From Chlamydoabsidia padenii (taxonomy: Eukaryota; Mucoromycota; Mucoromycetes; Mucorales; Cunninghamellaceae), in the NCBI GenBank assembly GCA_025330725.1, contig JAIWND010000028.1, forward strand, positions 119,501 to 183,500: a stretch of 64,000 nucleotides of DNA. Reading direction: 5' to 3'. Made by a program: the position numbers and the translations under genes. Under the pieces are notes generated by a model. That model was not told the origin of the DNA. It did not search any database and saw only the letters and a program-made list of their open reading frames with translations. Numbering within the stretch: the stretch's first letter is position 1; each line of letters opens with the position of its first letter. Below are positions 6,793 to 62,797 of this stretch, one piece after another.

Positions 6793-7255
6793 GGTATATT
6801 TATGTTGGATTCCAATAAAGATAATAAAGACGAAGGGGATAAGCAAAAATGGTAATCAAGAGGAAAAAAGGAATGAAAGAAAGAAGAAGAAAAAAAGGGG
6901 AAGAATAAAAAAAAGGGTCCCTTTTTTTAAGAAGGTCTGTGACGTACAAAAAAAGGATGAGTGACACAAACTAGAATCAAGCGCATTTCAAATCCCGAAT
7001 GACCCTAATTGACAAGTAATGTGTGTTTGATAAGACATTTTAAAATTGCATGGCATGTTTTATTTAAAGCTTTGTTCTATAAATGAATCAAGGTATAATC
7101 TAAAAAAGACAGAATGCATGAATCAAACATATAAGGTTACAAATGAGGGATAATAATGAATAGTAAAATAAAAGGTGTAATGAGATGATATTGATTATGC
7201 TATTTGTATGCAGTTAGAGAGAGAGAGAGAGAGATGGTGGGGGGGGGTGTATGAT
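6793..7255. other. rac1 promoter and helicase 3' region
   Basis: No gene is seen. The spacer has the recurrent motif at 6986-6997 and a GA repeat near 7214-7233 just after the helicase stop codon. Confidence 0.5.
6986..6997 (-). promoter_or_regulatory. Copy of GCGGGATTTGAAA motif
   Basis: Read on the minus strand this is CGGGATTTGAAA, about 195 bases upstream of the rac1 start codon and pointing toward it. It is one member of the recurrent family described in the findings. Confidence 0.5.
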
Positions 7256-9336
7256 CTAATATCTGTTTCCACCACCATATCCACCACGACGGTTTCCACC
7301 TCCATAACCGCCGCCACCACCACCGTTTCGGTTGTATCCACCTCGACCGCCGCCACCACCGCCGTTTCGGTTGTATCCACCTCGACCACCTCGACCACCA
7401 CCACCGCCACCACCTTGGAAGCGACCTTCACGTTCGGCCAATTCAGGAAGTTGATCAGGAGCAGACAATTCGATTCTAGTATCATGCCAAGCGCGACCGG
7501 CCAAGTAAACCACACCATCTTTGACTTCGACCTTGGAAGAAGTAAAATCAGCCACGACACCGGTACGATCCAATGTCATACGCCAGCCACGAGTATCTTC
7601 ATAGGAGAATTCAGGGTATTCTCGGTTGATGATGTTGCGAATATAGCCAGGATGGTTGATAGGTTGACCGACATTAAAGTACAGAGTTGTTTGATTATCC
7701 ATGGAAGTAAGTAAAGACCGGCTTGGGACACCTTTATGATAACCGGACATGAAAGCCAACGCAGACGCCACAGCGTCTTCGGCACCATGTTTTTCAATGA
7801 GCTTTTGCGCAGATTCAGTAAAGAGAGGAAGCACAGAAGGGTTGACACTATCGATAGACTTGAAGCAATCATCTACAGTAGCCTTGATGATGTCTTCAGC
7901 ACGAGGAGCAGACATGGTTTCAAACTTGACACCCGTTTTTTTGGAGATAAAGTTTAAAAGACCTTCTTCTTGGGCCTTGTAGAAGGTGACACAGACACCA
8001 GAGCGGCCAGCACGACCAGTACGACCAGATCGATGAACATACGATTCAGTATCTTTGGGAGGTTGACAGTTGATGACCAAATCCACTTGAGGGATATCCA
8101 GACCACGGGCCAGCACATCGGTACACACAATACACTTGTACTTGCCTTCACGGAATGCCTTCATTGTTGATTCCCGAGATTGTTGAGCAATATCACCATG
8201 GAGCACCGCGGCATCTTGCTTGATCTTGTCGTGAGTTCCCAATTCATTCGCATCGGCTTTAGTGGCACAGAAGATGACAGTCAAACCACTTTTACCATAG
8301 ACGTTCACGACATCACCAATGATATCCGCACGGGCTTGATAAGAGGAGGGCATGGCAATATGACGAATGTTGGTGTTGGTGCGGTTCTTGGCGTTCCCAA
8401 TCAAATCAATACGTACATAGTCTTCACGCACAAATCGGTTGATAGTTTCCATAACAGATTCAGGTACAGTAGCGGAGAAGAGGAGGGTTTGGTAATCACG
8501 GCTGGTCTTTTGTTCTTCAATCTTGGCCAATACGTTAAACATATCTTCTTGGAAACCACGAGCATCAAGCCTAAACAAACACACATACAAAAAAAAAGAG
8601 TAATAATCAGTATATATTCTTTTTCTATGTTTCCCTCCCCCCCTTTTTTTAATCATGTCACTTACATTTCATCGGCTTCATCAAGGATAATATATTGCAA
8701 ATCGTTCAATTTCATGTTACCAAACTTGATATGATCCATCACACGACCAGGAGTACCCACCACGACATCACAACCTTGACGGAAGACATTGGTTTGTTCA
8801 TTATAAGGAGTACCACCATATACAGGAAGAGCCACGAGACGAGAGCCAGAGATGTATTCAAAGTCACCACAGACCTGTTTAGCCAAATCACGAGTAGGAC
8901 AAAGCACAAGCACACGAGGAGACCGGCCCCGACGGTTACTGAATGCATTATCAGCAGCAAGTTTTTCAATCACAGGCAGAGCAAAGGCCAATGTTTTACC
9001 AGTACCAGTTCGAGCCCGAGCAAGCACATCCTTTCCATCATAGATCGTATCAAATGTCTTGGCTTGAATTTCAAACAAAGACTTGATCCCCTTGGTCGCC
9101 AGGTTTTGAATTGTGTTTTCAGTGATACGGAAGTTGCTTAATTTAAGTTCTTCAGGAATGGCATCTTCTTGATCTTCAGTAGTAGCATGTTCGGGATCCA
9201 CAATGTCTTGTTCCACAGAAGCAGCAGCAGCAGCATCGTCATCAAACTTGATCTTCTTGTTGATAGACTTGTTATTGTCTTCAGATCGATCCCGTTTCTT
9301 GGAATAGTCTTTTGCAGCATAGGTAGAAGAAGGCAT
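7256..9336 (-). CDS. DEAD-box RNA helicase, DDX21/DDX50 type
   Basis: Two exons (7256-8570, 8666-9336) give 661 residues; the intron splits the DEAD motif from MLDARGF. Order of motifs: Q-motif region, ARTGTGKT (Walker A), PTRDLAKQV, GTPGRV, DEAD, SAT, ARGLDIPQVDLVI, HRSGRTGRAG. After the helicase core come a GUCT-type domain (approx. residues 450-560) and a Gly-rich tail of GGGRGGYNRN repeats. The GUCT domain plus RGG tail is the hallmark of nucleolar DDX21/DDX50 and plant RH3/RH7, which remodel RNA during ribosome biogenesis. The N-terminus is charged and carries a KKIK nuclear signal. A variant promoter motif lies at 9444-9455, about 110 bases upstream. Long frames on the opposite strand are shadows. 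Confidence 0.93.
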
Positions 9337-9758
9337 AATGTGTTATAGATCTGAAGTAAAAAAAAAAAAAAAAAAAAGATAAGAAAGAAAGAAAGGAACT
9401 TTGAAAAGTTTTTCTTTAAATCCGTGACCGAGCCTTCCAAAAGTTGAAATCCCGCTTCCAATGCCGCACAGTATCACCCAATGAAATAAACCCAGAATCT
9501 GGATCAAACCAAATCAAATTGAACATTACCTACAAATCGAATGAAGTAAAAAGGACATCTTTATTTGTTCAACAAACTATAAGGGGGGGCTATGTTAATA
9601 TATATATATATACTATACGAATTATAAATGGTGTAAATATGATATTTTGTTAAAAAGAAGAGTAAAAAGAAGAGAAGAGAGTAAATAATGGTAAGATGGT
9701 AATAAGTATATAAGAGTAAAACTACAGGTCCAGGTGTCCAGGTGTTCAGGTTATGGGT
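9337..9758. other. Helicase promoter and zinc-cluster gene 3' region
   Basis: No gene is seen. It contains a poly-A run near 9358-9377 and a variant of the recurrent motif (TTGAAATCCCGC) at 9444-9455. Confidence 0.5.
9444..9455 (-). promoter_or_regulatory. Variant motif GCGGGATTTCAA
   Basis: On the minus strand this reads GCGGGATTTCAA and lies about 110 bases upstream of the DEAD-box helicase start codon. Confidence 0.45.
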
Positions 9759-10547
9759 TTATCGTTTCCGTTTTCTATCGATCGGTTCTTGTTGATTGTC
9801 CACCAGTTCAGAGTTCGATTTGGATGAAGAGAAGGAGGGTTGCTGAGGATAGCAGTAATCTTGTAGACTATTTAATGGTGGTAGATCCCTATGTTCGGTG
9901 GTGGTAGGAGGAGCAGATAAGGAATGGATCGATGGTAGTCGGACTTCACGGCCGGAAGAAGGTGGTGGTGAGGATGGTGTGGTGGTTGAAGTGAGGTTAG
10001 GTCCTGTGCTGCTGCTACCACTAGTAGGTGGTGTTGCCGTATTGGTCAAAGAAGTAGCCGAAGGTGGTGAGGGTTGTGGTGAAGGTGAGATATAAAGATG
10101 TTGACGATTATAAGAAGGAGGTCCTGAACTAGTGCTTGGTGGTGGTGGTGGTGGTGGTGAAGAGGCCGTTGTTGCTGTTGTTACTGTTGTAGCAGAGGAA
10201 GAAGAATCTTTGTTTAAAAACCTACTGACGGCCACAGGATCCAAGTCAGCCCTATAAACTTGAGATTGTACAATGGTCTTGAGCATGTCTTCAATGGTTT
10301 GGAGTCGTTCTTCAATAGCTTCCAGGGCAGCCCGACTAGGTCCGTTCCGTTTATCATCACTATGAGAGACTGGATAAACACAAGGCGAGGACGACTTTTG
10401 GCAATTCCGGCAAGGTTGTTCACCATTACAGCGAGTCTTCTTTCGACGACATTCACTACATGCACTGACAATCTTGGCCCGTTTTTGTCGAGTTTCAGTT
10501 TGTTTCTGTGGTGATGATTGTGTTGGTTGTTTTTCGTCAGCAGGCAT
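9759..10547 (-). CDS. Zn2Cys6 binuclear-cluster transcription factor
   Basis: A single exon of 262 residues. I chose the ATG at 10547 (MPADEKQ); the frame stays open upstream but that part is low-complexity and looks like 5' UTR. The DNA-binding cluster lies at about residues 27-53 with spacing C-X2-C-X6-C-X5-C-X2-C-X6-C (begins CSECRRKKTRC), preceded by the basic stretch RQKRAK. A short predicted coiled coil follows (ALEAIEERLQTIEDMLKTI). The rest is Ser/Thr/Pro-rich, with Pro runs and a basic end RKRKR. There is no fungal-specific TF domain, so it is a short member. It shares a 624-base spacer with muskelin, transcribed divergently. The target genes cannot be told. Confidence 0.88.
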   Translation of the reverse strand: MPADEKQPTQSSPQKQTETRQKRAKIVSACSECRRKKTRCNGEQPCRNCQKSSSPCVYPVSHSDDKRNGPSRAALEAIEERLQTIEDMLKTIVQSQVYRADLDPVAVSRFLNKDSSSSATTVTTATTASSPPPPPPPSTSSGPPSYNRQHLYISPSPQPSPPSATSLTNTATPPTSGSSSTGPNLTSTTTPSSPPPSSGREVRLPSIHSLSAPPTTTEHRDLPPLNSLQDYCYPQQPSFSSSKSNSELVDNQQEPIDRKRKR

Positions 10548-11171
10548 TTGGATTTGTCGTTTATAAAGGGGGGAAAGGAGAATAAAGGAAGGTGGGATAA
10601 ATGATAAAATGGGGCAAGTTTGTATAAAAAGTGTATAGAAGTGTAAATACAAGTATATTTTAAATGTAAAAGAGGAAGGGTAAAGTAAATAAATAACAAA
10701 ACTATAGAAGACAGTGGGTTTAAAATAAAAAGAAGGAAAGGAACAAGAAACAAAAATAAAAAAGTGAGGAGCACAATATAGAGAAGAATGGCGGCGATTG
10801 AAAATAAAAAAAGCAGATCCATTTTGATTGGATACTTGGCTGAAAGGACGGTTCCAATAAGTGAATCCAGTTTCCCTTTCTGTCTCTATCCCACACCTTT
10901 CCACCCCACACTTTGAAATCAACGTGGACACACTGGGAAAAAAAAAAAAGAGAGATCAATGAGATGGTTTCGGATCCAAACACATGATCAACTGGAGCTA
11001 GTACGGAGCTTTCATTTACGTCAAAAGTGCGGAAGTTTTTTTTTTATTTTTATAATCGATCGAAAACATTGTCATCTTAACCGCACTTTCATTCCTTCAT
11101 TATTTATATCATACAGCAAACTTTTCAAGAAAAAAGATAATCGTCTTTTTTTTTTCCCCTTTTCTTAAACG
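10548..11171. promoter_or_regulatory. Divergent promoter region, zinc-cluster gene and muskelin
   Basis: The 624-base spacer separates two divergent starts. It is rich in A/T with several poly-A and poly-T stretches. No clear copy of the recurrent motif is seen. Confidence 0.4.
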
Positions 11172-14643: not shown

Positions 14644-15318
14644 ATGGATTGGCCAACCAAAAGCAAATTACTCACGATTCATGCTATTTTGATGGCCTAT
14701 GTCTGGTTATTGGCCGTGCCATTAGCCATAGGCATTGCAGTCTATGGAAAAGTCTTTAACAAGGCATGGTGGGGGAAAGCGCATATGTGGATCATGTCTA
14801 TCGGAGTGATTGTCCCCTTGACAGTGGCAGGTCTCTTGGGGTTCATTGCTTCAGAAACATTAAAGCCCCGCCCGCATACAGTAAGAAAGAAAAAGCATAA
14901 AGACTGACCTCCCCCTCTTTTTTTTTAACAAGGATTCATAATATAGATTCTAGGAACCATTGTATTATTATTAGCATGGTTTCAAATTATTTTGGGCATA
15001 GTGAATCATTATGTTTACCGAGTGAGAGCGAGGGAGAACAAACTACCTGTCAAAAAACCATGGCATAATATATTACATATATGGACAGGACGGATCGTCT
15101 TCATTCTTGCATTAATTGCTATTCCTTTAGGAATGATAATTAAGCGCGATATAACTTCTGATTTCTTTATTGCTTATGCAGTGTGGGTATCACTCATAGC
15201 CTCCTTTTTCATTGGTCTTTATTTGTATGGAGTGTACCATCAAAGAAAATCGGCTGCTGCTGCTGAGTGCGATCTTGCATCGGAATTTGAAAATAAGAAA
15301 TTGGGCAACGGGCTTTGA
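14644..15318 (+). CDS. Cytochrome b561 domain membrane protein
   Basis: Two exons (14644-14880, 14947-15318) give 202 residues. The protein is hydrophobic with about five membrane segments. Candidate haem-ligand His residues sit where the family has them: LTIHAILMAYVW, AHMWIM, PHTILG (at the exon junction) and HNILHIWTGR. The fold matches the b561 core found alone or after DOMON domains in fungi. Such proteins pass electrons across membranes, often for ferric or ascorbate reduction; the substrate here is unknown. No signal peptide or DOMON domain is present. It is followed within 200 bases by nus1 on the same strand. Confidence 0.8.
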
Positions 15319-15393
15319 CCACGTTGGAGGGAAAAATTATAAATTAGGGTAAACATTTCGAAATAAGTTTCTTTCTTCTCTCTCTCTCTCTCT

Positions 15394-15425
<32 letters not shown>

Positions 15426-16722: not shown

Positions 16723-18122
<1,400 letters not shown>

Positions 18123-19284
18123 ATTATATACTAGTTTATTTTAGTCTTTTAAAATGAATCAATAAATAAAATACTTGTTTATAAACACATGTCTTATGGA
18201 TAGAAACCATGCCTTTTTTAGAAGTTGATTGGAATAGACCGGGGTAAATAGGGTGTTTAGAGTTTTGTTACTCCACACACCCGCACACAGTGATCGAAGT
18301 CAACTATAAAAACATGTTGGTCGAAGATGTGTTTTTATGGAGGGGGGGAAGGGGGTATATGAACAACATGTTCGTCATGCATATTTCTCCAAGATACGTT
18401 CATGTCTACTACTACATCTATGATATAATATACATACAATCTCCTATTCTTTTGATTCATATCAAATTACGGCAATATCACAATCGTTGCTCGATGGTTT
18501 TGTATCGATTCAACGGGGCAAGATCTTTTGCATAAGATTTTTTGGGGGCTGTTTGTAAATTATTATTAGATGAATCTCCTTAAATAATTAAACAAACCAC
18601 CAAGTTTCTATCGACACACCCGATTTAAACTAGTTCATATGTGTGAATGGAGGATGGATTAGTAAAATAACAACGGTTCGATCGGACTCGTACCTGTCAG
18701 ATCGACGGATTCCCTTTTTTGTAAATCGGGATTTGAAAAATTATCGTCCCTGGGAAACCTTTCCTCCTCCCTTATTTATCTTAATCCAAACCATCATTAA
18801 CATTCATACAGATGATAAGGTTTCCTCTATATATGACATCCCGATGTGACCCAAAAAGAAGACCATCATAATCAATATCTCCGCATCCCACAAAAAAGGG
18901 GGTGATGATTTACCTACCTGGCATACGTTTCACTTATACAAACACACACGCACTTTTTTTTTCCCTACATCTGCATAATCCGTCATGATCATGTGGATAC
19001 GAGCCCAACGAAAACAAAAACAGGGTTTATTTGTTCCGTGGATCTACCAAGTCAAGTAAAGGAATCAAAACAACGTGTATCAATATGAGATCAACATTTT
19101 TTTTTCTTTCTTTAATTGAGGTGTGCTTTTTATTGTAAAAAAAAAGGGAGGTCATTGGCTAAACTATATGAGATAAAAAAAGTTGATATGTATATAAATA
19201 TATAAAGGGAATAGATATAAATAGACTATTATACACAGATGACACAATGGAGAAGTGACCCAAATAACAAAGTAACAGTAAGGA
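18123..19284. other. 1.16-kb convergent spacer
   Basis: The spacer lies between two convergent genes. I see no coding pattern with codon structure, no tRNA and no repeat shared with the rest of the window, only short homopolymers. Confidence 0.45.
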
Positions 19285-20019: not shown

Positions 20020-21620
20020 GATGTTGTTTTCAGGGTTCCAGTGGTTTGTAATAATGATAATAGTAGACTAGTTGAAAGGTTGTCAATTTGTAGAGTTGCC
20101 CAAGATGGAGATGGATCTTGTCTGTGCCAAAGGAATGAATGGAATGGTAATGTGAATGTAAACGAGTCAGTTTTGTAAAAAAGAATAGACAGTGTAAGGG
20201 TAGCAGTTTAATAAGAAGAAGAAGAAAAAGAAGAAAAATTAAAAAAAAGAGTAGAATGAGAGAGAAGGGGGAAAAAAAGTAAAGTAAAGAGGAAAGAGAG
20301 GGAAAGAATTAACTTTTTGATTTTTTAAAGTCCTCTTATACTTTTTTTTTTTTTTTTTTTTTTTTTTCTTATGCTGCTGAGTTTTCAAGGGGATGTTTTT
20401 TTCCCCCTCTTTTTCTTTTTTGAGCCAGTCAAAGCACCAAAATAAAGAAAAGCGGCGCAAAAGTGATTTTTTGGCTTAAACAACCGATGACCACTACCTT
20501 TCATATTTCCCACTCTTTTCAATATCAGTCTCCTTACCGATCTTCTGAATGACATCGCAGTAAAAGGGAATGGGGGATACTCTACTACGACTGTCTCCTC
20601 CCTTTCTCCCCTGAACCTACCTTTTTTTTTCTTCTTCTTTTTCTTTTCTATTCATTATCTGGACCCTTGATTTCCTATTTAAGTCTAATCAACCCATTCC
20701 TACGAGCGAAAGCTCGATACCAGGCGGGATTTGAAAATGTACATTCCAAATCCCGCTTCATGCATGAAAGCATGGGCCCAGTGATTACATTGCATCTCCA
20801 AAAAAGAACCCCAATTCATCTATCCCGCCATTTTAACTTGTTACCAAATGTAATCCATAGAACGAAGGGAAAAAAAAAGGAGTAAGGTCACTGTCGTTAA
20901 TGGCTTTTTTCTTTCTCCCCCCCCACGATGATTAATCGATTTTTTGTGGATGATTAAGGAAATCAAAACAAAACCAACCTTTCATTCTAATGCAGGGCTC
21001 TTTAATATTTCCGTGGATGTGAATCATACAACAGAAATGGGGGGGGGGTAGTCAAAGAAAGAGAGAAAGGAGAAGAAAAAAGAGATTCATGTGCATGGCT
21101 CGTCACTTGATCTGTCACGCTCTTTTTACTAAATCGCCCGTCCAAGGATACATCATTGAGACCTGAGGATTAAATCTCATCAAGGAGACAACACGAGTCT
21201 GAGGCAAATGAGGAGATCGAAGGAAATAAAAGTGTGTGAGAGTGTGTGAGAGTGTGTGAAAGTGTTGTTAAGGAGATGGAAACGTGTGTTTTTTGTCTGA
21301 ATAGCGGTAAATGAAATTATTCAATGTAAATTGCCTTTCAATTCACCCCACGGATCTCGAGTAGGTGGTCAGGGCGTCCCCCCGCCTACCTTTCATTTAC
21401 ATTTTCATCCGCCCCGCCCCTTTCCCTATTTATGTAATCATATTATTTCTTCAAGGGATACCCCCCCACCCCTACTCCATTCTTTTTTAATGTGTGCTTA
21501 GTTTACATAGTCAACAGCATAAATAATGTTTTTGGGTGTTTTAAAAAAAGATGATGGGTTTTATTAATAACAATAAGAGAGAGAAAAAGTGTGTGTGTGC
21601 ATGCTATGCTATAATCTAAT
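20020..21620. other. 1.6-kb spacer upstream of CreA/Mig1-like gene
   Basis: No gene is seen. The spacer contains a poly-T run near 20342-20367, the palindromic motif pair at 20724-20756, and three imperfect copies of the 10-base unit GTGTGTGAGA near 21233-21260. It ends in the 3' region of the asparaginyl-tRNA synthetase gene. Confidence 0.5.
20724..20756. promoter_or_regulatory. Palindromic pair of the GCGGGATTTG motif
   Basis: GCGGGATTTG at 20724-20733 faces CAAATCCCGC at 20747-20756, giving perfect 10-base arms around a 13-base centre. It lies 705 bases upstream of the CreA/Mig1-like gene. Confidence 0.55.
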
Positions 21621-24459: not shown

Positions 24460-24887
24460 GTGACATCCTTTGTATTATTTAGTATAGTATAATATAGTAT
24501 ATAGAGAATGATTAGAATAGCAACAGCCTTATGTAGCACCATACTCTATTGTATGTACACTTGATCCCTGTAGTGCAAAATCAATAAAGTTTTTTTTTAT
24601 GGCGGGATTTGAAAATATCTATAACTTTGGCATTTGATTTTTTTTTTCCCCTTCCCCACTCTTCTTCTCTTCCTTGCACCTTCTTTTCCCACCTTCATTC
24701 ATCCACCTACAGTCATTTACACATTAAACCCCTCATCATCTTTTATCTACCATTAATCTACTTTACAAAGTAAGTTTATCTATGATGCTTTATATTGATC
24801 CAACTCTAACCTCGTTTTCCTCTTCTCTCTTTTTCGCCTTGTGGGGGGGGGGTGAAAAAGACCACTACGAAATAGATAACCTATACC
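24460..24887. other. Promoter region of the Nrd1-like gene
   Basis: A 428-base spacer. It has a motif copy at 24602-24614, a pyrimidine-rich stretch after it and a poly-G run near 24843-24852. No gene is seen. Confidence 0.45.
24602..24614 (+). promoter_or_regulatory. Exact GCGGGATTTGAAA motif
   Basis: This exact 13-base copy lies 273 bases upstream of the start of the Nrd1-like gene, in the same orientation as the gene. Confidence 0.55.
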
Positions 24888-27154: not shown

Positions 27155-27857
27155 GTTTTGACAGGGAGTTGATCCCGACATATACATAATAAATGGGGCG
27201 GCTACAAAAGGAGATGGCGGGAAGGGTCTTTCCTGTTCAAGACGACTGCTTCCAGAACAGATGCAGGCTGCATTTCAATAACACTTTGGAAGCTGTACAG
27301 GATCGAAAAAAAGTATTGATAGTCAAGATCAATACAATGCAAATAATCCAGTACATTCTTTTATAAAATGATCTTCCATGTAGGGAGACGGGAATGGAGT
27401 TGGGTAACAATGGATCAACTTTTTTTTTTTTCTTGCCATCGGCGGGATTCGAAAATAAAATTTATACAATGCAGACAGAAAATCATTAAACCCCCGATAA
27501 TCCAAGTCTCTTACCCGAAAAAGTGAACCATGCAGCCCCCCCCCCCCCACAACAAGTTCACTTCCGGAGCCCATCGACACTACAAAACATTAAACATTAC
27601 ACAAAATCATCAGATTCTGAAACCAAAGAAGAAGAAATAAAAAAAGAGGAGGGGGGAGGGTAGTTCCTCGGAACTGACATTGCAGTCATAGAGAGAAAAG
27701 GAGATGAGTGATATAAATAACACATGGTCGTCAGCTAAAATCATACAGCGTCATTTTTGCCAATGGATGTCGATCCACCCAAAATAAAATATTACCACAG
27801 TTGTAAATGAAAGAATGGATGTTTTGTTTCTTTATTTGTTAATTAATAATAATAATA

Positions 27858-28541: not shown

Positions 28542-29250
28542 CGTGTAATAAATTATCGTCGCTATTAGTGGTAGTTGACAATACAGTAATGTTCATGGAA
28601 TCACAAAGGAAGAGTTATATAGTAATAGAATAAGAGAGTTGGACTAGTTCTTCCTTTGTTAATGGATAAGAAGGAAGATTTTGTTTTTAAAAAAGGTACA
28701 AAGTCAAAGAAGAAGAGAAAGAAAGTTTTTTAGTTTTTTAGTTTTTTTGGCTCCTTCTTTTATTGTCGTCCGTTTCAAATCCCGCTACGGCCAATACCGG
28801 AATTCACTCTGCGGTCCCCATATGAAAATAGCCACATTCCTTTTAGAGTATACATTGAGATCAGTTCTTGCTCACATCCTTTACTCTCCAATTATTGGTC
28901 AAACTCAAAACTATATATACACAATCATCTTCTTTCCAAGAAGAAATACAATGCTTTTTTTTTGAATGATTTCTCCAAATGACTCACCAGCTGGGCCAAG
29001 CGGCGATTGAAAAAAAAGTTAAGGGGACATGAGCGGCATTCAGTTTTAGTGCGAATGCTCGATTCAAATCCAGATGAGCATTATGAAGTCATTAAAGATA
29101 AGGCATGAGGGGTATATGAGCAATGAGTTAATATAAAAGAATAAGCTCATTATCGATAAAAAAAAAAAAAAAAAAAAAAGGACAATGGATATGATATAAT
29201 GGTTTTTATTATTATTATGTGACAAAACAAAAAAAGATGAGGGGAAGATA
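28542..29250. other. Promoter of SERTA-like gene and A/T-rich spacer
   Basis: It contains an exact motif copy at 28773-28785 and a poly-A run near 29158-29179. No gene is seen in this part. Confidence 0.45.
28773..28785 (-). promoter_or_regulatory. Exact GCGGGATTTGAAA motif
   Basis: The minus-strand reading is an exact copy, 232 bases upstream of the SERTA-like gene and oriented toward it. Confidence 0.55.
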
Positions 29251-29267: not shown

Positions 29268-29985
29268 TCTAACCAATCTTAACCAGAGGAGAGATCCAAT
29301 ATGATGATGTGATGCATTGATCCATGAATCGACCGGTCTTGTTAATAAAGTGATTGTCTTTTTTTGTGGCACATATTTTTGTTCCTGAGTAAATAAACAG
29401 TCCATCGAATTTGACAACTTGTCCGTTGAGATTTTGTTGTAGAGGGGGGTCCTAAAAGAAAAGAAAAGAAAAAAAACCAAATCAGTCATCATTCTAGTCA
29501 CCATAAAAAGGGGGAAAGATACTAGTTACCTATCTTAGTGCCTTTGAGACAGATCCTTCATATCATACCTTCTGCCATGGGGTCACCTAATCGATGAGAA
29601 TCATGCTGTAAAGACAACCAAAAGGAATCACGGGATCAGAGATGGACTCTATATTTTTTTTTTGTGACACTTGATACAACTTGATCTCCAAAACAGCACT
29701 TGTTTAGTAGTAACCATTAGCAGCACGGGCCTTCATCATCTACATTCATAAAAAAAAAAAAAATAGAATCATACCATATTAGTATCTTGATGACTTACCA
29801 AGGTGGTTTCAATTTTAGAAAGTTTGCATGAATCATCGGCTTGGTCATAATATGTATACCGAGAGAATCTAGTTTGATCATCGTAAAATAAGAAGGAAGA
29901 CCTGTTGATCCTTAAAACAAAAAAAAAAAAGAAGACCTGTTGATGTTTCAAATTCCAACCACATTATTTTATTTCAAAACCCGCA
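29268..29985 (-). pseudogene. Possible small Cys-containing gene or decayed relic
   Basis: Three minus-strand stretches look coding but do not join cleanly. One at about 29807-29925 reads RFSRYTYYDQADDSCKLSKI and ends at a good donor (GTAAGT). One at about 29700-29745 follows a TAG acceptor and reads MMKARAANGYY then stops. One at about 29268-29450 follows a TAG acceptor and contains KICATKKDNHFINKTGRF and DQC before a stop. The pattern recalls small secreted Cys-rich fungal proteins, but I cannot find a signal peptide exon or a consistent frame. A duplicated ATCAACAGGTCTTC lies at the 5' side. It may be a real spliced gene, a relic, or chance. Confidence 0.25.
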
Positions 29986-33720: not shown

Positions 33721-33974
33721 AGGCGGTCCCGGTTGTACTTTCACTATGGTCGTATGGTAAGGTGGGGACATGCGTCGAATATTACCAAGCTCTGGCTTCC
33801 CAAAAGATGTGTCCTATAAAGAAAAGAAAAAACATCTTCAGGATGAAAATGTATCAGTGATGTTGCGTGCGGAAATTAAACTTGTTTTTTTAAAGCGTAA
33901 GCCAATCACAAGTGTATATATGCGGGTCACGATTTTTTTTTTTCTTCCCCCTCTTCAATTCTTTTGTTGATACA

Positions 33975-37484: not shown

Positions 37485-38021
37485 TATTTAAGAGAAAGAG
37501 AAGGAAAATCGAAAGAATTAAAAAAAAAAAAAAAAAAAAGTGAAATAAAAAGAGATTAAAGCTTCGTCGGGATTCGAAAAATAGCACACGCATGAGTGGC
37601 AATCCAAAAAAGCATAAGCAAAACTCAATTAGCGTTGATTCTCCATTGGAAGAGTAAATGATACTTGGTACTTGGTAACAAAGCAATCGTTACATTGTCA
37701 TTCCGCTAGTTTCCATATCAGTTGCTAGAATGATGCATCACCCCCTCCCCCAATTCGAGCTAACGGGAAATATTCAAACCCCGAGCATTCTGTCTCATTA
37801 TTATATTTGATAAAGACCCGCCTATTCGAACCATTTCTTTCACTTTTTTATCTTTTTACATCCAAAAACATCGATAGGTAAATACGAACCAGACATCATC
37901 CATATCACGATCATCCATCTCTCCAGTATACAAGACGGATGGATGGTTTATTTATTGCTAAGCACACGTTTTGGTGCAACCCATACTAACTTACCAACAT
38001 CTTCCCATCCATCATCTAGTC
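37485..38021. promoter_or_regulatory. Divergent promoter region
   Basis: The 537-base spacer separates the divergent LIR-motif gene and ran. A motif variant CGGGATTCGAAAA lies at 37568-37580, 84 bases upstream of the minus-strand gene. A looser one, ATTCAAACCCCG, lies near 37773-37784, about 240 bases upstream of ran. Confidence 0.45.
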
Positions 38022-40199: not shown

Positions 40200-40293
40200 C
40201 TTTGACAAGGATTAGAGGAAGAGGGAAAAAAAATTAAAAAAAGTTGGGCGGCCCTTTCTTTTCACTCTGTAAAAATGGTCAGGCCTGATTTTA

Positions 40294-40304
40294 TTTAAAT
40301 CCCG
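40294..40304 (-). promoter_or_regulatory. Motif variant CGGGATTTAAA
   Basis: It lies in the divergent spacer between ubiquitin-eL40 and the pseudouridine synthase, 58 bases upstream of the latter's start codon, in reverse orientation to it. Confidence 0.4.
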
Positions 40305-40361
40305 ATACTTGAGTAGGATTTTTTCTTTCCCTCCTCTTCTTTCTTCCCTTTGCAAACCAAC

Positions 40362-41906: not shown

Positions 41907-42297
41907 ACCTTCTTATTTTATCTTCTCTTGTTATTAATATAAAGAAAAAAATACATGACTCTATCTTTTAATCTGTAGCCAACACTTCATTAAAAAAAAA
42001 GTGGGGTAATATTGTGTAACATATAATTGTATGCGTCTTCCTCACAGGGTAATGACTTGTAGCAGTGATGGAGACTCCAAATGAACACAAATTGGGATGT
42101 TTTAGGCTTACTCTCACATGTGCGGGGATCATCGGGATTTCAAAATTTGCATATTCCCTCCCCACCCGATTTTTGGACTTCGGGCGCGTCTCTTTTCCCC
42201 TTCCCACTTCCTTTTTTTAATTCTAAATCTATATAAACAGTTTTCCATACTTCTTCCACTTTTACTTCTTCTTTATACACACATAACTACAATCACA
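41907..42297. other. Acyl-CoA oxidase promoter region
   Basis: A 391-base spacer with a motif variant at 42133-42145 and a pyrimidine-rich stretch before the ATG. No gene is seen. Confidence 0.4.
42133..42145 (+). promoter_or_regulatory. Motif variant CGGGATTTCAAAA
   Basis: It lies 152 bases upstream of the acyl-CoA oxidase start codon in the same orientation. Confidence 0.45.
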
Positions 42298-45085: not shown

Positions 45086-45525
45086 TGCAGAAGTGACCTA
45101 CATTTGTTATGTAGTGTTATGATTTTATAGTTGCTAGCATATATTTACTTTTTTACACTCTTTTTATTTGATTTATTTGTGTCATGATTTAAATAAACTG
45201 AAACCATGCTTTTTTTTGCGATGCTCTTTTATTCTGATTGTTGCTTGGACTTTATTATTAAGGCGCCGATTAAACATATAATTCATGCAGACTTGACTAG
45301 AGCTGTAAAGAAATACTTATCGCTCTTGAAAGGGAAAGACACGAACATGACAGGAAGGTATATGTAAAGACAAAGCATTGGTATGTTGATATGTGTAGAT
45401 CATAGAGTTCCTAAATTAGAAAAAGGGACCGACGGGATTTCAAAAAAAGTTGCTGACATCACCCCGACCGCTCTTCTAAAAAAGACCCACTTTTTTTTTC
45501 CTCTTCTTTTCTCCTTTTTACAATC
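45086..45525. other. Promoter region of ZNF830-like gene
   Basis: The spacer has 3' signals of acyl-CoA oxidase and a motif variant CGGGATTTCAAAA at 45433-45445. No gene is seen. Confidence 0.4.
45433..45445 (+). promoter_or_regulatory. Motif variant CGGGATTTCAAAA
   Basis: It lies 80 bases upstream of the ZNF830-like start codon and in the same orientation. Confidence 0.45.
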
Positions 45526-46482: not shown

Positions 46483-46766
46483 TATTAGATATAGTTTATA
46501 TGGGACTTTTTTTTTTTTTTTTTTTTTGAAAAAATAAAATAAAATTGTTGTTTTAATGTTTAGTTTGACATGTAAATGGATGGGATCTAATGATTTCCAA
46601 TCAACATGGCAAAAGATCCACTCAATTAGTAACCTCCACATAAAGACCTACTATAATCAAGACACATTAATCCCCACCCGTGTCTCCATAGTTCGGGGGA
46701 AAAAAATGGTTGGACTACAAGTTGGGCGTTAATGTCAGGCGAGTTCTGGGATGCTCCAAAGTCGCC

Positions 46767-47452
46767 ATGCGCATTCGTTAGCCTATTTCCTACAACGTTT
46801 ACATAATGGATATTGTACCAAGTCCACTGTATGGAGCAATATAGCCTCAAGATCGTTTTACCCTGACTTTTGTGAAAATAATGCTGCAGAATGAAAAATT
46901 GACACACAAGACAAAACTTAATTCAAAACCCGCTTACTCTCGCCTTGAATATTGAGAGCTCTGTTGTATCAATGAACAAGTGATGCTAATGACAAAAGTG
47001 ACCATATGCATTCCTTAACCTATTTCCAACAAAATTTACATAATAGTCAATATACCAAGTCCACTGTATGGAGCAGTATACCCTCAAGATTGTTTTACCC
47101 TGACTTTTGTGAAAATAATGCTGCAGAATGAAAAATTGACACACAAGACAAAACTTATTTCAAAACCCGCTTGCTCTCGCCTGGAATCTTGAGAGCTCTA
47201 TTGTGTCAATTTTTCATTCTGCAACTTTTTTTTTTTTTTTTTTTAGAAAACTCAGGCTAAAACGATCTTCAGGCTATATTGCTCCATACAAGGGACTTGG
47301 TACAATGGACATTATGTAAACTCTGTTGGAAATAGTCTAAGGAATGCACTTGGTCACTTTTGTCATTAGCATCACTTGTTCATTAAGCTAGTAGAGCACT
47401 CTCAAGATTCAAGGCGAGGGTAAGCGGGGTTGAAATAAGTTTTGTCTTGTGT
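46767..47452. repeat. Direct and inverted repeat cluster
   Basis: A unit of about 200 bases at 46767-46967 (with TACCAAGTCCACTGTATGGA and TGCTGCAGAATGAAAAATTG) repeats in direct orientation at 47002-47201, a period of 235 bases. An inverted, diverged copy runs from about 47205 to 47452, interrupted by a poly-T run near 47227-47244. The parts form a long hairpin-capable structure. The family is related to the 3.5-3.9 kb repeats. All copies carry a variant of the recurrent motif (GCGGGTTTTGAAAT or GCGGGGTTGAAAT). No coding capacity is seen. Confidence 0.8.
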
Positions 47453-47687
47453 GTCAATTTCAAATTGCGTGATTTCTGGCGGAAGGGGAAGTCGGCGGTT
47501 AAATATTTTGGCAGGTTGATTTTATGCAGGAAAACCAGGTTTTCTTTTGTCATGCATGAAGGGCAAATGTCGTTTTATACTACCTAAAAGAAAGAGACAA
47601 GTTGGGTTCTATATAAAGTTTATTTTTTTATTGATGATATAATACAATGATTAGACTATATAACATACAAAAAAAAAAAAAAAAGAA

Positions 47688-52707: not shown

Positions 52708-52890
52708 GACAAGGATGAAGAAGAGTTTTTTTTTTTTTTTTTGGGACGCCCACACTTTTATATATCCCACCCCACCCCTCTGTATAATTTAAACACCGAC
52801 AAAAAGAGACAAACACAATGATATAACATCCATTTATTATTACATCAAAGTATTTAAAAAAAAATAAAGAGGAAGAGACGTCCATGTCAT

Positions 52891-53427: not shown

Positions 53428-53894
53428 GGTGAAAATTCTATAACCAAGAGAGAGAGACAGAGAGAGTCGTCAGTATCTATTCATCCATCTGTCGATCCAT
53501 CCATTCATCCATTCATCCATTCATCCATATAATTAAAATCATCCATTATATATCGATCGAAGGATGTATCATCGACAAAGTATCGCCCTGCATTTTTACC
53601 TTTGTGAAAGGAGGAAGTGGGAGATGAATAAATGAACAGAGTCATTTTCAACCTCTCCATCGAGAACGGAATTTGAAAAGCGGGATTTAAATGTATTTTT
53701 TGGGTTGTGCGAGTGTTTCTTTTTGCATTGATGTCCCCAAATATGGAAAGCTGTTTTGTTTCATTTTTGCCCATGCTTTGGGTTTATGATCTTGTGTAAA
53801 TAATAACAATAATGATAAAGGATATAAAAAGGAGGAAAGACAAAATAACATCTTTTTTTTTTTTTTTTTTTTTTGCTCTTTCTTTATAGAAACA
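53428..53894. promoter_or_regulatory. Divergent promoter region, eL34 and F-BAR gene
   Basis: The 467-base spacer holds the probable eL34 5' UTR intron, a motif variant at 53680-53691 (GCGGGATTTAAA), TCCA-type short repeats near 53479-53530, and a poly-T run near 53850-53873 just before the F-BAR start. Confidence 0.45.
53438..53599 (-). other. Probable 5' UTR intron of eL34
   Basis: A donor (CACAAAG|GTAAAA) at 53599 and an acceptor (GGTTATAG) at 53438, about 10 bases before the ATG, bound a 162-base segment with a TCCA repeat. It mirrors the arrangement in ubiquitin-eL40. Confidence 0.45.
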
Positions 53895-57192: not shown

Positions 57193-57253
<61 letters not shown>

Positions 57254-58275
57254 ATACCAAATAAGGATAAAAGAAGATAAAAAATGTTAATAAGCGTGGT
57301 TTCATATCATCGTCATAGGTCCCACTACTTACGAGACAGGTAAATCGACTGCACGGGCGGCTAATTGCCGTTGTTGTAAAATACGAGAGGCACCATCCAC
57401 ACCACGACTAGTTCCACTAATGACTACTTGGAAAGACTATAAAGAGTGATGAATAACATTGATCAGTATACTTTATTGTCTTTTTTTTTTTTTTTTTTTT
57501 TTTTTTTCTTTACAACTTACGCTGTTGATATTAGCCAATTCCACCACTTCTCCTTTAGGCAACATATCCTTGATTTCACCAATAGCATCTTCAAGATCCT
57601 GGAGTCGGCCTTGCCGCACCACCAAAGCCGCCATTGCCGTATTCGTCTGATGCAAATCCTCCACCGATCGAGTCATGGCTTCACCCCGAAGTCGTACCAA
57701 TCGGACAGCATCGGTCAAGGACAATGATTTTGTCGCCACCAATGCAGTATATTCACCCAAAGAATGACCCAATACATAACCGCATGCCTTGGTCACATCC
57801 AGTCCGAATTCGAGTTCAAGCACTCGAAGCATGGCCACAGAGGTGGTGAGAATCGCCGGTTGTGCATTTTCTGTCAGTTTGAGCTTTTCTTGATGACCAT
57901 CAAAAATGAGTGACTTGAGACCGTATCCTAATGCTTCGTCGGCTTCGTCGAATACCAGTTTGGCAGACCGTGGATAGAGATGGTAGAGATCTTTGCCCAT
58001 CCCCACATATTGAGATCCTTGACCTATATCACCAACAACCCAAGTTTAGTTGTTTGTTTTGCTTTGTTTTGTTTTTATTGTAATGAGTGAGTGGACTGTA
58101 CCTGGGAAGAGAATGGCGCGATGAGCTCGTTCAATACCGGCTGTGCTCTGTAGAGAGAGAGAGAGAGAGAGAGAGATTAGAATATGTAGATTGACCTTTC
58201 TTGTTATGTTTTCTTTACCATCCATGTTCGTCGTCCGCTTGGTGCAAATTTCATAAGGTGTCGAGTAGCAGCCAT
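56732..58275 (-). CDS. mct1: Mitochondrial malonyl-CoA:ACP transacylase
   Basis: Seven exons (56732-56783, 56838-57013, 57073-57190, 57333-57436, 57521-58023, 58102-58147, 58219-58275) give 351 residues. The N-terminus MAATRHLMKFAPSGRRTWM is basic and amphipathic, like a mitochondrial presequence. Motifs of the FabD fold: ILFPGQGSQYVGMGKDL, GHSLGEYTALVA with the nucleophilic Ser, the Arg of LVRLRGEAM, and SAPFHCEFM with the catalytic His. It moves malonyl groups from CoA to ACP in mitochondrial fatty acid synthesis, which supplies lipoate. Introns 1 and 4 carry long CT tracts (plus-strand GA) right before the acceptors. Confidence 0.93.
57195..57251. repeat. GA/CT microsatellite in mct1 intron
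   Basis: About 28 GA dinucleotides. In the mct1 transcript this is a CU tract that ends at the CAG acceptor of exon 5. Confidence 0.9.
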
Positions 58276-58539
58276 AATAATATATAATAAGATGTATAAT
58301 AAAAAAAAAAAGGAAGAGTAATGAAGAAAGAAAGAAAAAAGGAGGAATAAAAAAAAAAAAAAAAAAGATTGGGTTTAAATATAAAGTTAACGACACATGC
58401 CGAAAAAAATGAGGTCCTGACAAAGCTTCATTCAATTAATGGTTACACGAGACGACCGACCCCACACAATTCGGTTAAACGTTTATTGGCATGATTCACA
58501 TAATAGATTTTATTTATAAAACAAAAAAAAAGTAGATGG

Positions 58540-58570
<31 letters not shown>

Positions 58571-58630
58571 AGATGACTATTATGAAAAAAGAAGGGGGAT
58601 GGAATAAGATGTATTTACAAGCAGCAGGAT
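58276..58630. other. mct1 promoter and SSADH 3' region
   Basis: The spacer holds poly-A runs near 58301-58312 and 58350-58366 and a TA repeat near 58543-58570. No gene is seen. Confidence 0.4.
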
Positions 58631-60423
58631 TTAAAGACCGCCCATGTTAATATATTTGATATTGACATAATCATCAATGCCATGGAGAGATCCTTCACGG
58701 CCTAAACCACTTTCCTTGACACCACCAAAGGGAGCATAACAGCTTGAGATGATACCAGAGTTAGCACCGACCATACCCGATTCAAGTTGTTCAGACACAC
58801 GCCATACCCGACCGACATCACGAGAGAAGAAGTAAGCAGCCAAACCAAAGGGAGTATCATTCGCCCGGCGAATAATTTCTTCTTCAGTATCAAAAGCAAA
58901 CAGACCAGCAATAGGACCAAATGTTTCTTCATCGGCGATCATCATGTCATTGGTCATACCCGTCACAACCGTAGGTTCAAAAAAGTTACCGCCCAGAGCC
59001 TTACCACCCACGAGTACCTTGGCACCTTTACTGACAGCATCATCCAGATGACGTTGGACCTTTTCCACCGCGCGAGAGTTGATCAAGGGGCCATGAGTAG
59101 TATTGGAATCAAAGCCATGACCGACCTTGAATTCAGCCACCTTGGCAGCAAATCGTTTGGCGAATTCATCATAGACACCGCGTTGCACGTAGATTCGGTT
59201 GGCACACACACAGGTTTGACCAGTGCCTCGGAATTTGGAGGCCAAAGCACCTTCCACTGCAGCATCCAGATCAGCATCGTCGAATACAATAAAGGGAGCA
59301 TTGCCACCGAGTTCCATCGATACCTTCTTCATTGTGCTAGAGCTTTGAGACATTAAGAGTTTACCCACAGCAGTCTATACATAATAATAATAGAGAGAGA
59401 GAGAGAAAGATGAGTGATCCGACCCTGATTTATATATATATATATATATATGTAGTACTTACCGAACCAGTGAAGGAGATCTTTTTGATAGCAGGGTTAG
59501 TACACAATTCTTTACCAACGTCGGCCACATGTTGATGAGAAGTAACGACATTAACCACACCAGCAGGGATACCCACACGTTTCGCCAATTCACAAAGAGC
59601 CAAAGCAGAGTAAGGGACTTCGGCACCAGGTTTGATCACCACCGTACAACCAGCTGCCAAGGCAGCTCCGACCTTACGAGTCAACATGGCAGTAGGGAAA
59701 TTGAAGGGCAAGATGATACCGACCGGACCCACAGGTTGCTTGATGGTGAGATAACGTTGGTTAGGCATGGGGGAAGGAATCGTGGTACCATACATCCGTA
59801 CAGCTTCTTCGGCAAACCATTCGTAAAAACTAGCACCATAAGCAATTTCACCACGCGCTTCCGCCAATGTTTTGCCGTTTTCCCAGGTGAGGATGGTGGC
59901 GAGATCTTCTTGGTTGGCCATGATCACATCGTACCATTTCTTCAACAAGTCGTGACGTTGCTTACCAGTTGTTTTTGACCAGGTCTTGAAGGCATCGTTG
60001 GCGACATTGATTGCTTGACGAGTTTCTTCCAGGCCCAAGTCGGGGACAGTACCGATTTCTTTACCAGTAGCAGGATCTAAAGAGAAGATACCCTTGTTAT
60101 TGACCTTTTTCCTATTCCCTTTTTTTTTTTTTTTTTCTTTATTACCATCTACTGAGAATGTTTCAGACTTGGAAATCCATTCATTGTTGACAAAAGCTTC
60201 TTGGCGGAAGAGGGAAGGGTCAGATAACTATATATAAAAAAGAAGAAAAGAAAAAATGGTTAGTAATGTGGTTAAAAAAGAAAAAGATACAACTTACCTT
60301 GGGGACTGTGACAGATGTGACAAAAGACTTGGTAGCAGACATGGTGAATTTCTTGGCAGTATAAGGACGGGTGGTATTAAAACAGGCACGTAAATAAGAA
60401 GTCTGCAAAGCAGCTTTAATCAT
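58631..60423 (-). CDS. Succinate-semialdehyde dehydrogenase
   Basis: Four exons (58631-59374, 59463-60076, 60146-60227, 60298-60423) give 521 residues. The first about 27 residues (MIKAALQTSYLRACFNTTR) look like a mitochondrial presequence; a second in-frame Met at residue 28 could start a cytosolic form. Aldehyde dehydrogenase motifs: PFNFPTAMLTRKVGAALAAG, the NAD-site FTGSTAVGK (split by an intron), ELGGNAPF with the general-base Glu, GQTCVCANR with the catalytic Cys, and KESGLGREGS. It fits SSADH (yeast Uga2, bacterial GabD), which oxidises succinate semialdehyde in the GABA shunt; other aldehydes cannot be excluded. Confidence 0.92.
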
Positions 60424-61227
60424 TTGTTAAAAAAAAAAAAAAAAAAAGTTGAAGAGGAAAAGATAAAAGGTGGGATAGGAAAAAAGGACGAAACTAAATG
60501 AACGAGCGGGATAGAAATCTTGTTAGTCAAAAAAGCATTCTAACAAAAATGATTGGATAACGGGTTTTGAATATTAGTCAAAGCTTGTTTTCTGGTTTTG
60601 GAAACATCTGCCCGTTCCTTCCACCATAGATTAATCCTCTAATCGAGAACAATGCAAAGAGAAGGTTACATCATCAAAGACATGATATTGTTAGTCTAAT
60701 TATCTGCTGTATTATCTTTGCATTACTCACGGCAAATTGTTAAACACGAACAACGTCTACCCCATTCCAAATTAAAATACCGACGCATGATTTTTCACAC
60801 GGGCTTTTTCAATAAACTACTGCTATTAACAAACATTTTGGATCTCTTAATACAACCGATGATGCATATTTACAAAATATAGTCTACTATTATGTCATAG
60901 TTATTGTTTTTGTTAAGCTCGTGGATGATACATGCAGCATCTATTATCAAAACACAAGAGGGGTTGTCAAAGATCGATCGATTAACATCTGAGTAAAATA
61001 GGAGGTAGTTTATTTTCTGGCACGCGCTGGGATCACATACCAATTATCATTGCCCATTTTACTTTACAAATACATTAGTGACATTTTTTATTTAAAGAAG
61101 AGAGGGGGGGGAGATAAAAAGAACTACTGTATTTATATAAACGGGGGAATGAAGTCTATATCTACACTATGCTATCAAGTTGTCAGCTGCATTATCGAGT
61201 TGGATGATTGGTTCAAGTTTAGTATTT
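60424..61227. other. SSADH promoter and spacer
   Basis: It holds a poly-A run near 60428-60447 and a weak GAGCGGGATAGAAAT near 60502-60516. No gene is recognised. Confidence 0.4.
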
Positions 61228-62107
61228 TTATGTAGGTTGTGCCGAGTGATGTTCGTCAAGGATTGCCGCTGTTCCAAATACCTGTCGTCTTTGCATTGAT
61301 TTCCATAAAATGAAGAGCCCAAGTGAGCAATTGGAGTGTCTTTTTTTAATGAATACCATCAAACACCATTGCAGGAAAGATCGATAAAAGTTATTGATGC
61401 CGTATCGCCTTTAAGTTAATCATTGTTGTGCCATTAGCAATTTACTTTATGTTGGTGAAGGTGGGAAGCTTGCCGTAACCTGTTGTTTTAATGGCGACAA
61501 GGACAACCCAGAAGACTGCAGAAATACTATCGAATTCACTTCTAGAGAGAGAGAGAGATGTTAAACATATATCAGTTATAGCTCCCTATTACAATGGATA
61601 AATATACCTTGGATTCCAAAGTGTCATCCCATGTTCATCTTTGGGCAAAATAGACCAAGGTAGATAATATGGCCACAAAAGTCACCAAAGGGCAGATAAT
61701 GAATGTATAATCAAAAAGAAGTAGAGATACCACCATCGCTTCGATCGTCATAACAATCGAGTTGGAATACTTAGTAAATAGTAGTAATGCACGGAAGAGT
61801 CGAAGGATGGTGCATCAGAATCCATATATCTACAAAACGCTGGAATAAAAAAAAAAAAAGACGTGTTAGTTTCAGTCTGGCCAGCTACCCACTCATCCTT
61901 TACTTACCAATAGCAACCATTTTCACCATCATCCAGAATAAGCCAACAGCCGAGAAGAGCCACCTTGGTAAATTCCAAACAGACAGAACCTACAAAGAAA
62001 AAAAAAAGATCAGGCATTTTGTTGTTACAAATCCGTATTCTTCTTACCAGATCCAGTTGTTTTCAATCGACCGAAAAGCAAGCATCGTTTGCACCTTGAC
62101 ACAATCC
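61228..62107 (-). pseudogene. Kv-type potassium channel pseudogene
   Basis: Minus-strand exon-like segments line up with a voltage-gated K+ channel. At 61908-61989 there is SVWNLPRWLFSAVGLFW (transmembrane). At 61608-61839 there is RFVDIWI, then, in a different frame, an S4-like ILRLFRALLLFTKYSNSI and an S5-like VTFVAILSTLVYFAQ that runs into TGA. A third frame resumes DEHGMTLWNP. At about 61433-61541 there is FDSISAVFWVVLVAIKTTGYG, the pore helix and selectivity filter (family: TVGYGD), then a TAA. A last piece near 61280-61330 resembles post-S6 sequence (LGLFILWKSMQRRQ). The frameshifts and stops show decay. Splice sites between segments are still recognisable. Confidence 0.7.
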
Positions 62108-62435
62108 AAAGCAAGTGCAAGAAAGGTTCTAGTTGTTTGACGAATTCAAACCCAAGTTGAGAGACCATGCCACTATTTTCTAGTGTGTCTACCTTTCACC
62201 AATACCCCTAGTGAATGGGCGTATTTCGTCATGTACTGTAAAAGAGGCATCCGTCAAATATGAGATCTGTCTGCTGGTGGAGTGCAACTATGTTACAATT
62301 GTAATTGTTTTTCTTCATTGTCGAGTTTTATATAAAAGTTCCAAATGTTTGTATAAAGTAAGGTAGATTAAAAAGAAAGAAAGTAAGGAAAAGAAAAAAA
62401 AGAAAGGGGGAAATGAATGGTTTTGGATATCCCCA

Positions 62436-62448
62436 GCGGGATTTGAAA
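62436..62448 (+). promoter_or_regulatory. Exact GCGGGATTTGAAA motif
   Basis: It lies upstream of the potassium-channel pseudogene (which runs leftward) and downstream of the homeobox gene. It may be the relic of the channel gene's promoter. Confidence 0.5.
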
Positions 62449-62774
62449 TGCATTTCCGTAACCCACGTTGTTGTAGATCCTGGCATAAGATGATTCCTGT
62501 TCCTTTCACTTGCTCGATCTGTCCTTACTTGATTACATGTTTATTGGAACTTACTCTTCATATACTATTATATCTGTACTTGATCGCAGGAAAACAGGAC
62601 ATCACTCATATCAGCACAAAAGACGCTATTATGTCGGGTACATATTGTCTTGCTCCCTTGCACAATAGGTTTTCCCCCCCCACTCTAGTGCACTTGGGTA
62701 GAGTCTTTTTTTTTTTTACAGAATTGTGATTAGTATCGATGTGGGTAAGCATTTCCAAAGGTAAAAAGATCAAA

Positions 62775-62797
62775 GCGGGATTTCAATTTTAATCCCG
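62775..62797. promoter_or_regulatory. Motif dyad GCGGGATTT ... AATCCCG
   Basis: CGGGATT at 62776-62782 is mirrored by AATCCCG at 62791-62797 across 8 bases, a second palindromic arrangement like that at 20.7 kb. Confidence 0.45.

Follow-up and report, generated by a model that had tools for sequence, protein, structure and literature searches.

General regulatory factors of yeast such as Reb1, Abf1, Rap1 and Cbf1 recognize specific sites near the promoters of many genes, use these sites in both orientations, and combine breadth and lack of orientation bias with a fixed distance to the initiation region. The CCAAT box, bound by NF-Y, is likewise independent of orientation and has a preferred distance upstream of the start. 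Here we consider a 13-mer, GCGGGATTTGAAA, together with its close variants (the word, in what follows), which recurs in the spacers of a 64,000-nucleotide stretch of contig JAIWND010000028.1 of the Mucorales fungus Chlamydoabsidia padenii (positions 119,501 to 183,500 of the forward strand; this whole stretch is the window). Our analysis of the sequence suggests that the word is probably the site of one abundant sequence-specific protein, or of a rigid complex, which would act as a general regulatory factor at the promoters of this fungus.

The likeness to the yeast sites is that a defined sequence accompanies many promoters, and the likeness to the CCAAT box lies in indifference to orientation and in a preferred upstream distance. 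The letters themselves differ. The Reb1 word CGGGTAA is not enriched here (0.18 per 10 kb in noncoding DNA versus 0.29 in exons), nor is CACGTG (0.49 versus 0.58), nor CCAAT (10.5 versus 19.5). Nucleosome depletion is a feature of the yeast side of the comparison, and for the word it would be a prediction. According to one report (PMC2897762), sites of the yeast type differ between fungal lineages and have been replaced over time. A third described system, the CDE/CHR elements of DREAM/DRM, resembles the word in that an E2F-like part is followed by a CHR-like part, but its spacing, its E2F variants and its gene set do not fit.

Abundance and anatomy of the word

Close reading covered 314 kb, namely the window and C1:1-250000, the first part of a second contig, which together make up less than 1% of the assembly (34.2 Mb, 95 contigs); whole-genome word counts cover all of it. 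Gene models came from a simple hidden Markov model trained on the sequence itself, which gave 136 models, 54.6% coding sequence and a median intron of 74 bp, and the 120 models with at least 100 codons are the genes counted in the statistics of position and coverage. A motif matrix was built from noncoding DNA, with copies of one repeat form excluded; it gave 309 hits, of which about 36 are expected to be false at the simulated false rate, and 273 after removal of overlaps.

The window holds 24 matches to GCGGGATTTGAAA at up to 2 mismatches, where 100 dinucleotide shuffles gave a mean of 2.04 and at most 6. Genome-wide, the exact word occurs 1177 times, evenly on both strands (596/581), and its reversal not once, so that the excess over chance claimed in the first-pass annotation, which had been made from the window alone, is borne out and proves larger than stated there. 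A degenerate form, KCGGRATTTVAAW, has 5640 copies in the genome against 6 for its control, or about one per 6 kb. In the 314 kb, once simple words are removed, CGGGATTTGA is the most over-represented 10-mer on both strands, with 45 copies against 0.71 expected from an order-4 Markov model. The excess lies mainly in spacers: at one mismatch KCGGGWTTTGAAA occurs 0.52 times per 10 kb in exons, 0.97 in introns and 7.0-9.3 in spacers.

The matrix has the consensus [AG][GT]CGG[G>a,c][A>g]TTT[G>a,c]AA[AT][AT]T, that is, CGG, two bases and TTTnAA in a rigid unit of 13-15 bp, with G or T about equally often before the CGG. The rigidity is explicit when the gap is varied: in noncoding DNA, [GT]CGG-n-TTTGAA has 81 copies at n = 2 and 0-3 at each other n from 0 to 9, repeat-borne copies being counted. 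Beyond the unit little is shared, since 44 aligned copies of CGGGATTTGAA have mostly unrelated flanks with no conservation past 1-3 bases. This bears on the idea that the word is the relic of one dispersed repeat family inserting near promoters, which we regard as very improbable. In its favour, repeats do carry the word: among 188 flanks compared, 32 of the 109 distal sites (classes defined below) and 5 of the 79 proximal ones have a flank relative, and 9 of the 16 copies of one form, NCGGGTTTTGAA, are repeat-borne, all in one repeat. Against it stand the unconserved flanks of the aligned copies, the 74 of 79 proximal sites that have no flank relative, which already contradict it for the proximal copies, and a fixed spacing to a promoter tract, described next, which would not be expected of insertions. 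With flanks mostly unrelated, we therefore reject the proposal that all copies belong to one such family, which the first-pass annotation had named as what would overturn its own reading.

Position and promoter layout

Upstream of start codons the density of sites rises sharply and then falls, from 0.5 per kb at 0-50 bp to 4.8 at 50-100 bp and 6.6 at 100-150 bp, with 1.6-3.3 beyond. A site lies within 400 bp upstream of 91 of the 120 genes, and in 48 of these 91 the nearest is 80-140 bp away. Coverage was measured 30-300 bp upstream at a score of 9. When each contig was scanned with a matrix derived only from the other one, 44 of 89 and 16 of 29 genes carry a site, 60 of 118 in all; after shuffling, these sequences give 2.0 and 0.4 (2.4). 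With joint matrices, trained on the other contig's sites although those sites themselves came from the joint matrix, the counts are 61 of 89 and 17 of 29, or 78 of 118, with 2.6 and 1.6 (4.2) in shuffles. Taken together, the two trainings put the share of examined genes with a site between half and two thirds, roughly double that of 3' flanks.

The site is tied to a second landmark. In 78 promoters the sequence 50-70 bp from the site towards the gene is 55% T, 27% C and 5% G. In 76 genes a site at 40-250 bp is combined with a tract whose pyrimidine content is 80% or more, and here the median distance from site to tract is about 61 bp with an interquartile range of 22.5 bp, compared with interquartile ranges of 73 bp from site to start codon and 60 bp from tract to start codon. 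When site positions are permuted among genes, the site-to-tract range averages 73.7 bp, and the lowest of 5000 permutations is 39.5 bp. The tightness of this spacing argues that the site belongs to the layout of the promoter and is not placed with respect to the start codon, which the tract precedes by about 48 bp. Of the 79 genes that have a site, 96% also have such a tract, compared with 69% of the 39 that lack a site. We infer that the tract may serve as a stand-in for the site of transcription initiation, as is usual in fungi.

At 40-200 bp, same and opposite orientations stand at 18:13 in tandem promoters and 17:19 in divergent ones; over all sites within 400 bp they stand at 77 to 59 (binomial p 0.14), which is no clear bias, and the distance to the tract is 62 bp in the same orientation and 61 bp in the opposite one. 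The first-pass annotation had proposed a core-promoter element. The promoter half of that proposal is upheld by the concentration of sites 50-150 bp upstream of starts and by the tight spacing to the tract; because orientation has no clear bias, we prefer to call the word a proximal element and to drop the term core. Could it nonetheless be read directly by the basal machinery (TFIID/TFIIB), in the manner of TATA or Inr? Tight spacing to the tract and presence in many genes would suit such an element, as would the finding that TATA-like words do not separate promoters with the site (19 of 79) from those without (9 of 39). Unlike directional core elements, however, the word has no clear bias in orientation and keeps one distance to the tract whichever way it points, and many copies lie far from starts, so that we consider direct reading by the basal machinery quite unlikely.

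Since the frequencies of TATA-like words do not differ between the groups, TATA was also set aside as an alternative class for genes lacking the site. Runs of at least 10 T occur in 33 of 79 promoters with the site and in 7 of 39 without (p 0.013, one of eight words tested).

A further alternative is that the word serves an activator or repressor that acts broadly but under particular conditions, such as a growth regulator of the Zn2Cys6 or C2H2 type, and not a general factor that opens chromatin. CGG is typical of Zn2Cys6 sites and is part of the word, the window encodes one Zn2Cys6 and one C2H2 protein (neither of them linked to the site), and 39 of the 118 genes with full upstream sequence have no site at 40-250 bp. 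Half to two thirds of genes is nevertheless broad for a regulon, and genes with and without the site are similar in median coding length (1146 versus 1068) and exon number (4 versus 5). We judge a condition-specific regulator unlikely.

Breadth, lack of orientation bias and a fixed distance to the presumed initiation tract together make a general regulatory factor the most likely reading. How might such a factor work? It would bind first at the site, in either orientation and about 60 bp upstream of the pyrimidine tract. Once bound, it could keep the proximal promoter free of nucleosomes, and the nucleosome-free promoter would in turn fix where transcription starts, roughly at the tract. The same factor may have a second role at copies far from genes, as a boundary, a termination roadblock or an origin.

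A number of observations pull the other way, and we collect them here. Of 219 sites with a score of at least 8 in the 314 kb, 79 are at most 250 bp upstream of a start (the proximal class), 31 elsewhere, and 109 more than 400 bp from the predicted start of any gene of at least 100 codons (the distal class). Distal sites lack the tract: it accompanies 25% of 104 of them, counted by the criterion of all gene models, versus 21% at random. In 3' flanks of equal width, separate training finds sites for 21 of 88 genes on the one contig and 6 of 31 on the other, and joint matrices for 33 of 88 and 7 of 31, a control that is blurred because some 3' flanks are the 5' flanks of neighbouring genes. Convergent spacers hold 17 sites per 10 kb compared with 27 in divergent and tandem spacers. 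At its loosest threshold the matrix also matches exons, 121 times in 315,166 positions versus 309 times in 256,628 noncoding ones. Moreover, every start codon is a prediction of a simple, sequence-only hidden Markov model. The sites in convergent spacers and 3' flanks in particular imply that serving promoters is only part of what the word does.

Among the matches listed in the open PubMed Central literature (titles and beginnings of abstracts, with subscription papers outside the search), there was no description of the word or of a general promoter motif in Mucorales or other early-diverging fungi; by title, neither four exact 12-mer forms nor shorter forms searched together with Mucor led to a fungal-promoter paper or, for the shorter forms, to any fungal paper. 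To our knowledge no such general promoter factor has been described in this lineage. The promoter grammar of early-diverging fungi seems little mapped, and a word carried by between half and two thirds of the examined promoters offers a direct handle on the missing general factor and on where transcription starts, as well as on promoter design in industrial Mucorales.

Comparison with E2F and LIN54 sites

The first-pass annotation had also likened the word to a CHR element bound by LIN54/CXC proteins and fused to an E2F-like box, that is, to a hybrid E2F/DP and LIN54 site of the CDE/CHR or DREAM/MuvB kind timing cell-cycle genes. There is a resemblance at the level of letters: the 13-mer contains GCGGGA and then TTTGAA, and 126 of the 219 sites match the CHR consensus TTYRAA at the expected place. 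In this succession of an E2F-like and a CHR-like part the word looks like the hybrid motif of the worm. A hybrid E2F/DP and LIN-54 motif is described in C. elegans, with relatives in fly and human (PMC3093354), and zygomycetes are reported to have kept E2F and lost pRb (PMC4862756).

The genome does encode candidate proteins. The search for E2F-like genes that the annotation had called for returned six matches over the cut-off to E2F_TDP (PF02319). These domains lie on contigs C7, C56, C19, C67, C1 and C8; three score about 88-97 bits and three about 68-72 bits, and the two groups are perhaps the E2F and DP types. Searches of the genome for CXC, LIN9-type DIRP and pRb (RB_A) domains returned no match, in runs without a positive control, for which reason the absence of these proteins is not proven.

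The rules of the word are different ones. The site is carried by half to two thirds of the examined genes on two contigs and is not restricted to cell-cycle genes. If an E2F protein read the first half, the variants of its half site (GCGSSA) should be interchangeable, but in noncoding DNA TTTGAA is preceded by GCGGGA 25 times and by GCGCGA, GCGCCA and GCGGCA 0 times each, and canonical E2F words show no enrichment, with 6 copies in noncoding DNA and 10 in exons. The 4-base spacer between GCGG and CHR known from human CDE/CHR elements occurs with TTTGAA 0 times in noncoding DNA and once in exons, versus 81 at a spacing of 2. The near-equal use of G and T before CGG counts against an E2F half as well, and the CXC, DIRP and RB_A searches, with the limit just given, gave no match. 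Breadth, spacing and E2F variants thus leave the cell-cycle assignment without support, and we hold a hybrid E2F/DP and LIN54 site to be improbable. A word so like an animal motif and yet under different rules is a caution against naming elements by resemblance.

Distal copies, repeats and the copies of the window

If the word marks promoters, what are the distal copies? The matrices of the proximal and distal classes are nearly identical, which suggests that the same protein may bind both. Hidden promoters as the cause of the distal copies were rejected on the absence of the pyrimidine tract, and known noncoding RNA or tRNA genes on searches with Rfam and ARAGORN, which found none in the window and C1:1-250000; ARAGORN was run with a bacterial setting, which may overlook intron-containing tRNAs. 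Another word, TTCATGCA / TGCATGAA, is over-represented as well, forms the palindrome TTCATGCATGAA and has 42 copies in the 314 kb; it tends to lie no more than 30 bp from copies of the 13-mer, for example at 20724-20770 of the window and at distal sites on C1. The core of this second word, GCATGAA, goes with distal copies and is avoided near promoter copies: 20 of 77 distal sites outside repeats have it no more than 40 bp away, compared with 1 of 79 promoter sites and 3.4% of random positions in spacers. Distal copies on C1 include inverted pairs, such as 215419/215431, 117799/117813 and 222060/222083, with 12-34 bp between starts and no fixed spacing.

These observations could be taken to mean that the word is chiefly an element of chromosome structure, an insulator, a termination roadblock or a replication origin, which happens to be common in short spacers. 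The distal copies, the inverted pairs, the sites in convergent spacers and the GCATGAA partner would all accord with this. Left unexplained would be the sharp peak upstream of starts and the spacing to the tract, and we regard a chiefly structural role as improbable. Staying with a general regulatory factor, we suggest more tentatively that it is specific to Mucorales and without a yeast counterpart, that it reads the rigid bipartite site CGG-N2-TTTnAA and sets a large share of promoters, and that with a second factor reading TTCATGCATGAA it marks distal elements; we find this extension possible but rather doubtful. If it were true, Mucorales would have a two-word genomic code, for promoters on the one hand and for boundaries, origins or enhancers on the other.

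The 32 distal sites with flank relatives lie in dispersed repeats with copies about 240 bp apart, a repetition that TRF did not show on one 10-kb stretch. By eye there are at least two families of such repeats, some of them inverted with AGAGCTCT words, and many units carry a site like the 13-mer. They are found at 46758-47504 of the window and on C1 near 9.4-9.9, 27.0-27.5, 63.2-63.8, 83.8-84.5, 156.6-157.3 and 177.9-178.4 kb.

The copies of the window are given below, with mismatches counted against GCGGGATTTGAAA where stated and distances taken to predicted starts.

6986..6998, minus strand: TCGGGATTTGAAA, 1 mismatch, 289 bp upstream of a Ras-family model ending at 6702 (-)
9443..9455, minus strand: GCGGGATTTCAAC, 2 mismatches, 112 bp upstream of a helicase-type gene whose model ends at 9336 (-)
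10791..10803, plus strand: GCGGCGATTGAAA, divergent spacer, 249 bp upstream of 10547 (-) and 375 bp upstream of 11172 (+)
15280..15292, plus strand: TCGGAATTTGAAA, 224 bp upstream of 15510 (+)
16910..16922, minus strand: TCGGGATGTCAAT, partner of the copy at 16929, 121 bp upstream of 17037 (+)
16929..16941, plus strand: GCGGATTTTGAAA, 2 mismatches, 102 bp upstream of 17037 (+)
18726..18738, plus strand: TCGGGATTTGAAA, convergent spacer, distal class
20724..20736, plus strand: GCGGGATTTGAAA, 0 mismatches, first half of a distal inverted pair, adjoining TTCATGCATGAA
20744..20756, minus strand: GCGGGATTTGGAA, 1 mismatch, second half of the distal inverted pair
24602..24614, plus strand: GCGGGATTTGAAA, 0 mismatches, intronic in a model that is possibly a fusion of two genes
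27442..27454, plus strand: GCGGGATTCGAAA, 1 mismatch, convergent spacer, distal class
28773..28785, minus strand: GCGGGATTTGAAA, 0 mismatches, 182 bp upstream of 28596 (-)
33869..33881, plus strand: GCGGAAATTAAAC, 100 bp upstream of 33975 (+)
37567..37579, plus strand: TCGGGATTCGAAA, 2 mismatches, 88 bp upstream of 37484 (-)
37772..37784, minus strand: TCGGGGTTTGAAT, 3 mismatches, divergent spacer, 293 bp upstream of 37484 (-) and 244 bp upstream of 38022 (+)
40293..40305, minus strand: TCGGGATTTAAAT, 3 mismatches, divergent spacer, 63 bp upstream of 40362 (+) and 331 bp upstream of 39967 (-)
42132..42144, plus strand: TCGGGATTTCAAA, 2 mismatches, 160 bp upstream of 42298 (+)
45432..45444, plus strand: ACGGGATTTCAAA, 2 mismatches, 88 bp upstream of 45526 (+), a ZNF830-like gene
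46758..47504, no strand: dispersed repeat with inverted repeat arms, holding copies of the GCGGGTTTTGAAA type and belonging to the repeat minority
52787..52799, minus strand: TCGGTGTTTAAAT, 85 bp upstream of 52707 (-)
53666..53692, plus strand: tandem pair ACGGAATTTGAAA / GCGGGATTTAAAT, divergent spacer from 53427 (-) to 53895 (+), the copy at 53680 with 2 mismatches
60560..60572, plus strand: ACGGGTTTTGAAT, 142 bp upstream of an aldehyde dehydrogenase model ending at 60423 (-)
62436..62448, plus strand: GCGGGATTTGAAA, 0 mismatches, within the doubtful model 61748-62561 (-)
62775..62787, plus strand: GCGGGATTTCAAT, 2 mismatches, 219 bp upstream of the doubtful model ending at 62561 (-)

All 14 copies listed in the first-pass annotation, and the three it called looser, are present within 0-1 base of where it had put them and with 0-3 mismatches to GCGGGATTTGAAA; the looser copy at 29972 has 1 mismatch. 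There are further copies that it had passed over, for example at 2973, 15280, 18726 and 53666. Its statement that no listed copy is in an exon holds under our gene models. Its other statement on position, that most copies lie 60-280 bases upstream of a start, fits 8 of the 14, which are at 63-258 bp (the one at 62775 before a doubtful model), with 6986 just beyond at 289 bp; it does not fit the pair 20724/20744 and the copy at 27442, which have no near start, nor those at 24602 and 62436, which lie in introns of doubtful models. The copy at 24602 is possibly the promoter of the RRM gene that follows, called Nrd1-like in the annotation. The gene behind the copy at 6986 had been named rac1; our analysis agrees on the Ras family, and the narrower name is that annotation's own label. 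The ZNF830-like protein encoded from 45526 (+), the one protein used to place the organism among the Mucorales near Absidia, is closest among named sequences to those of Absidia, Halteromyces and Cunninghamella at 51-63% identity, and its top match is at 69%.

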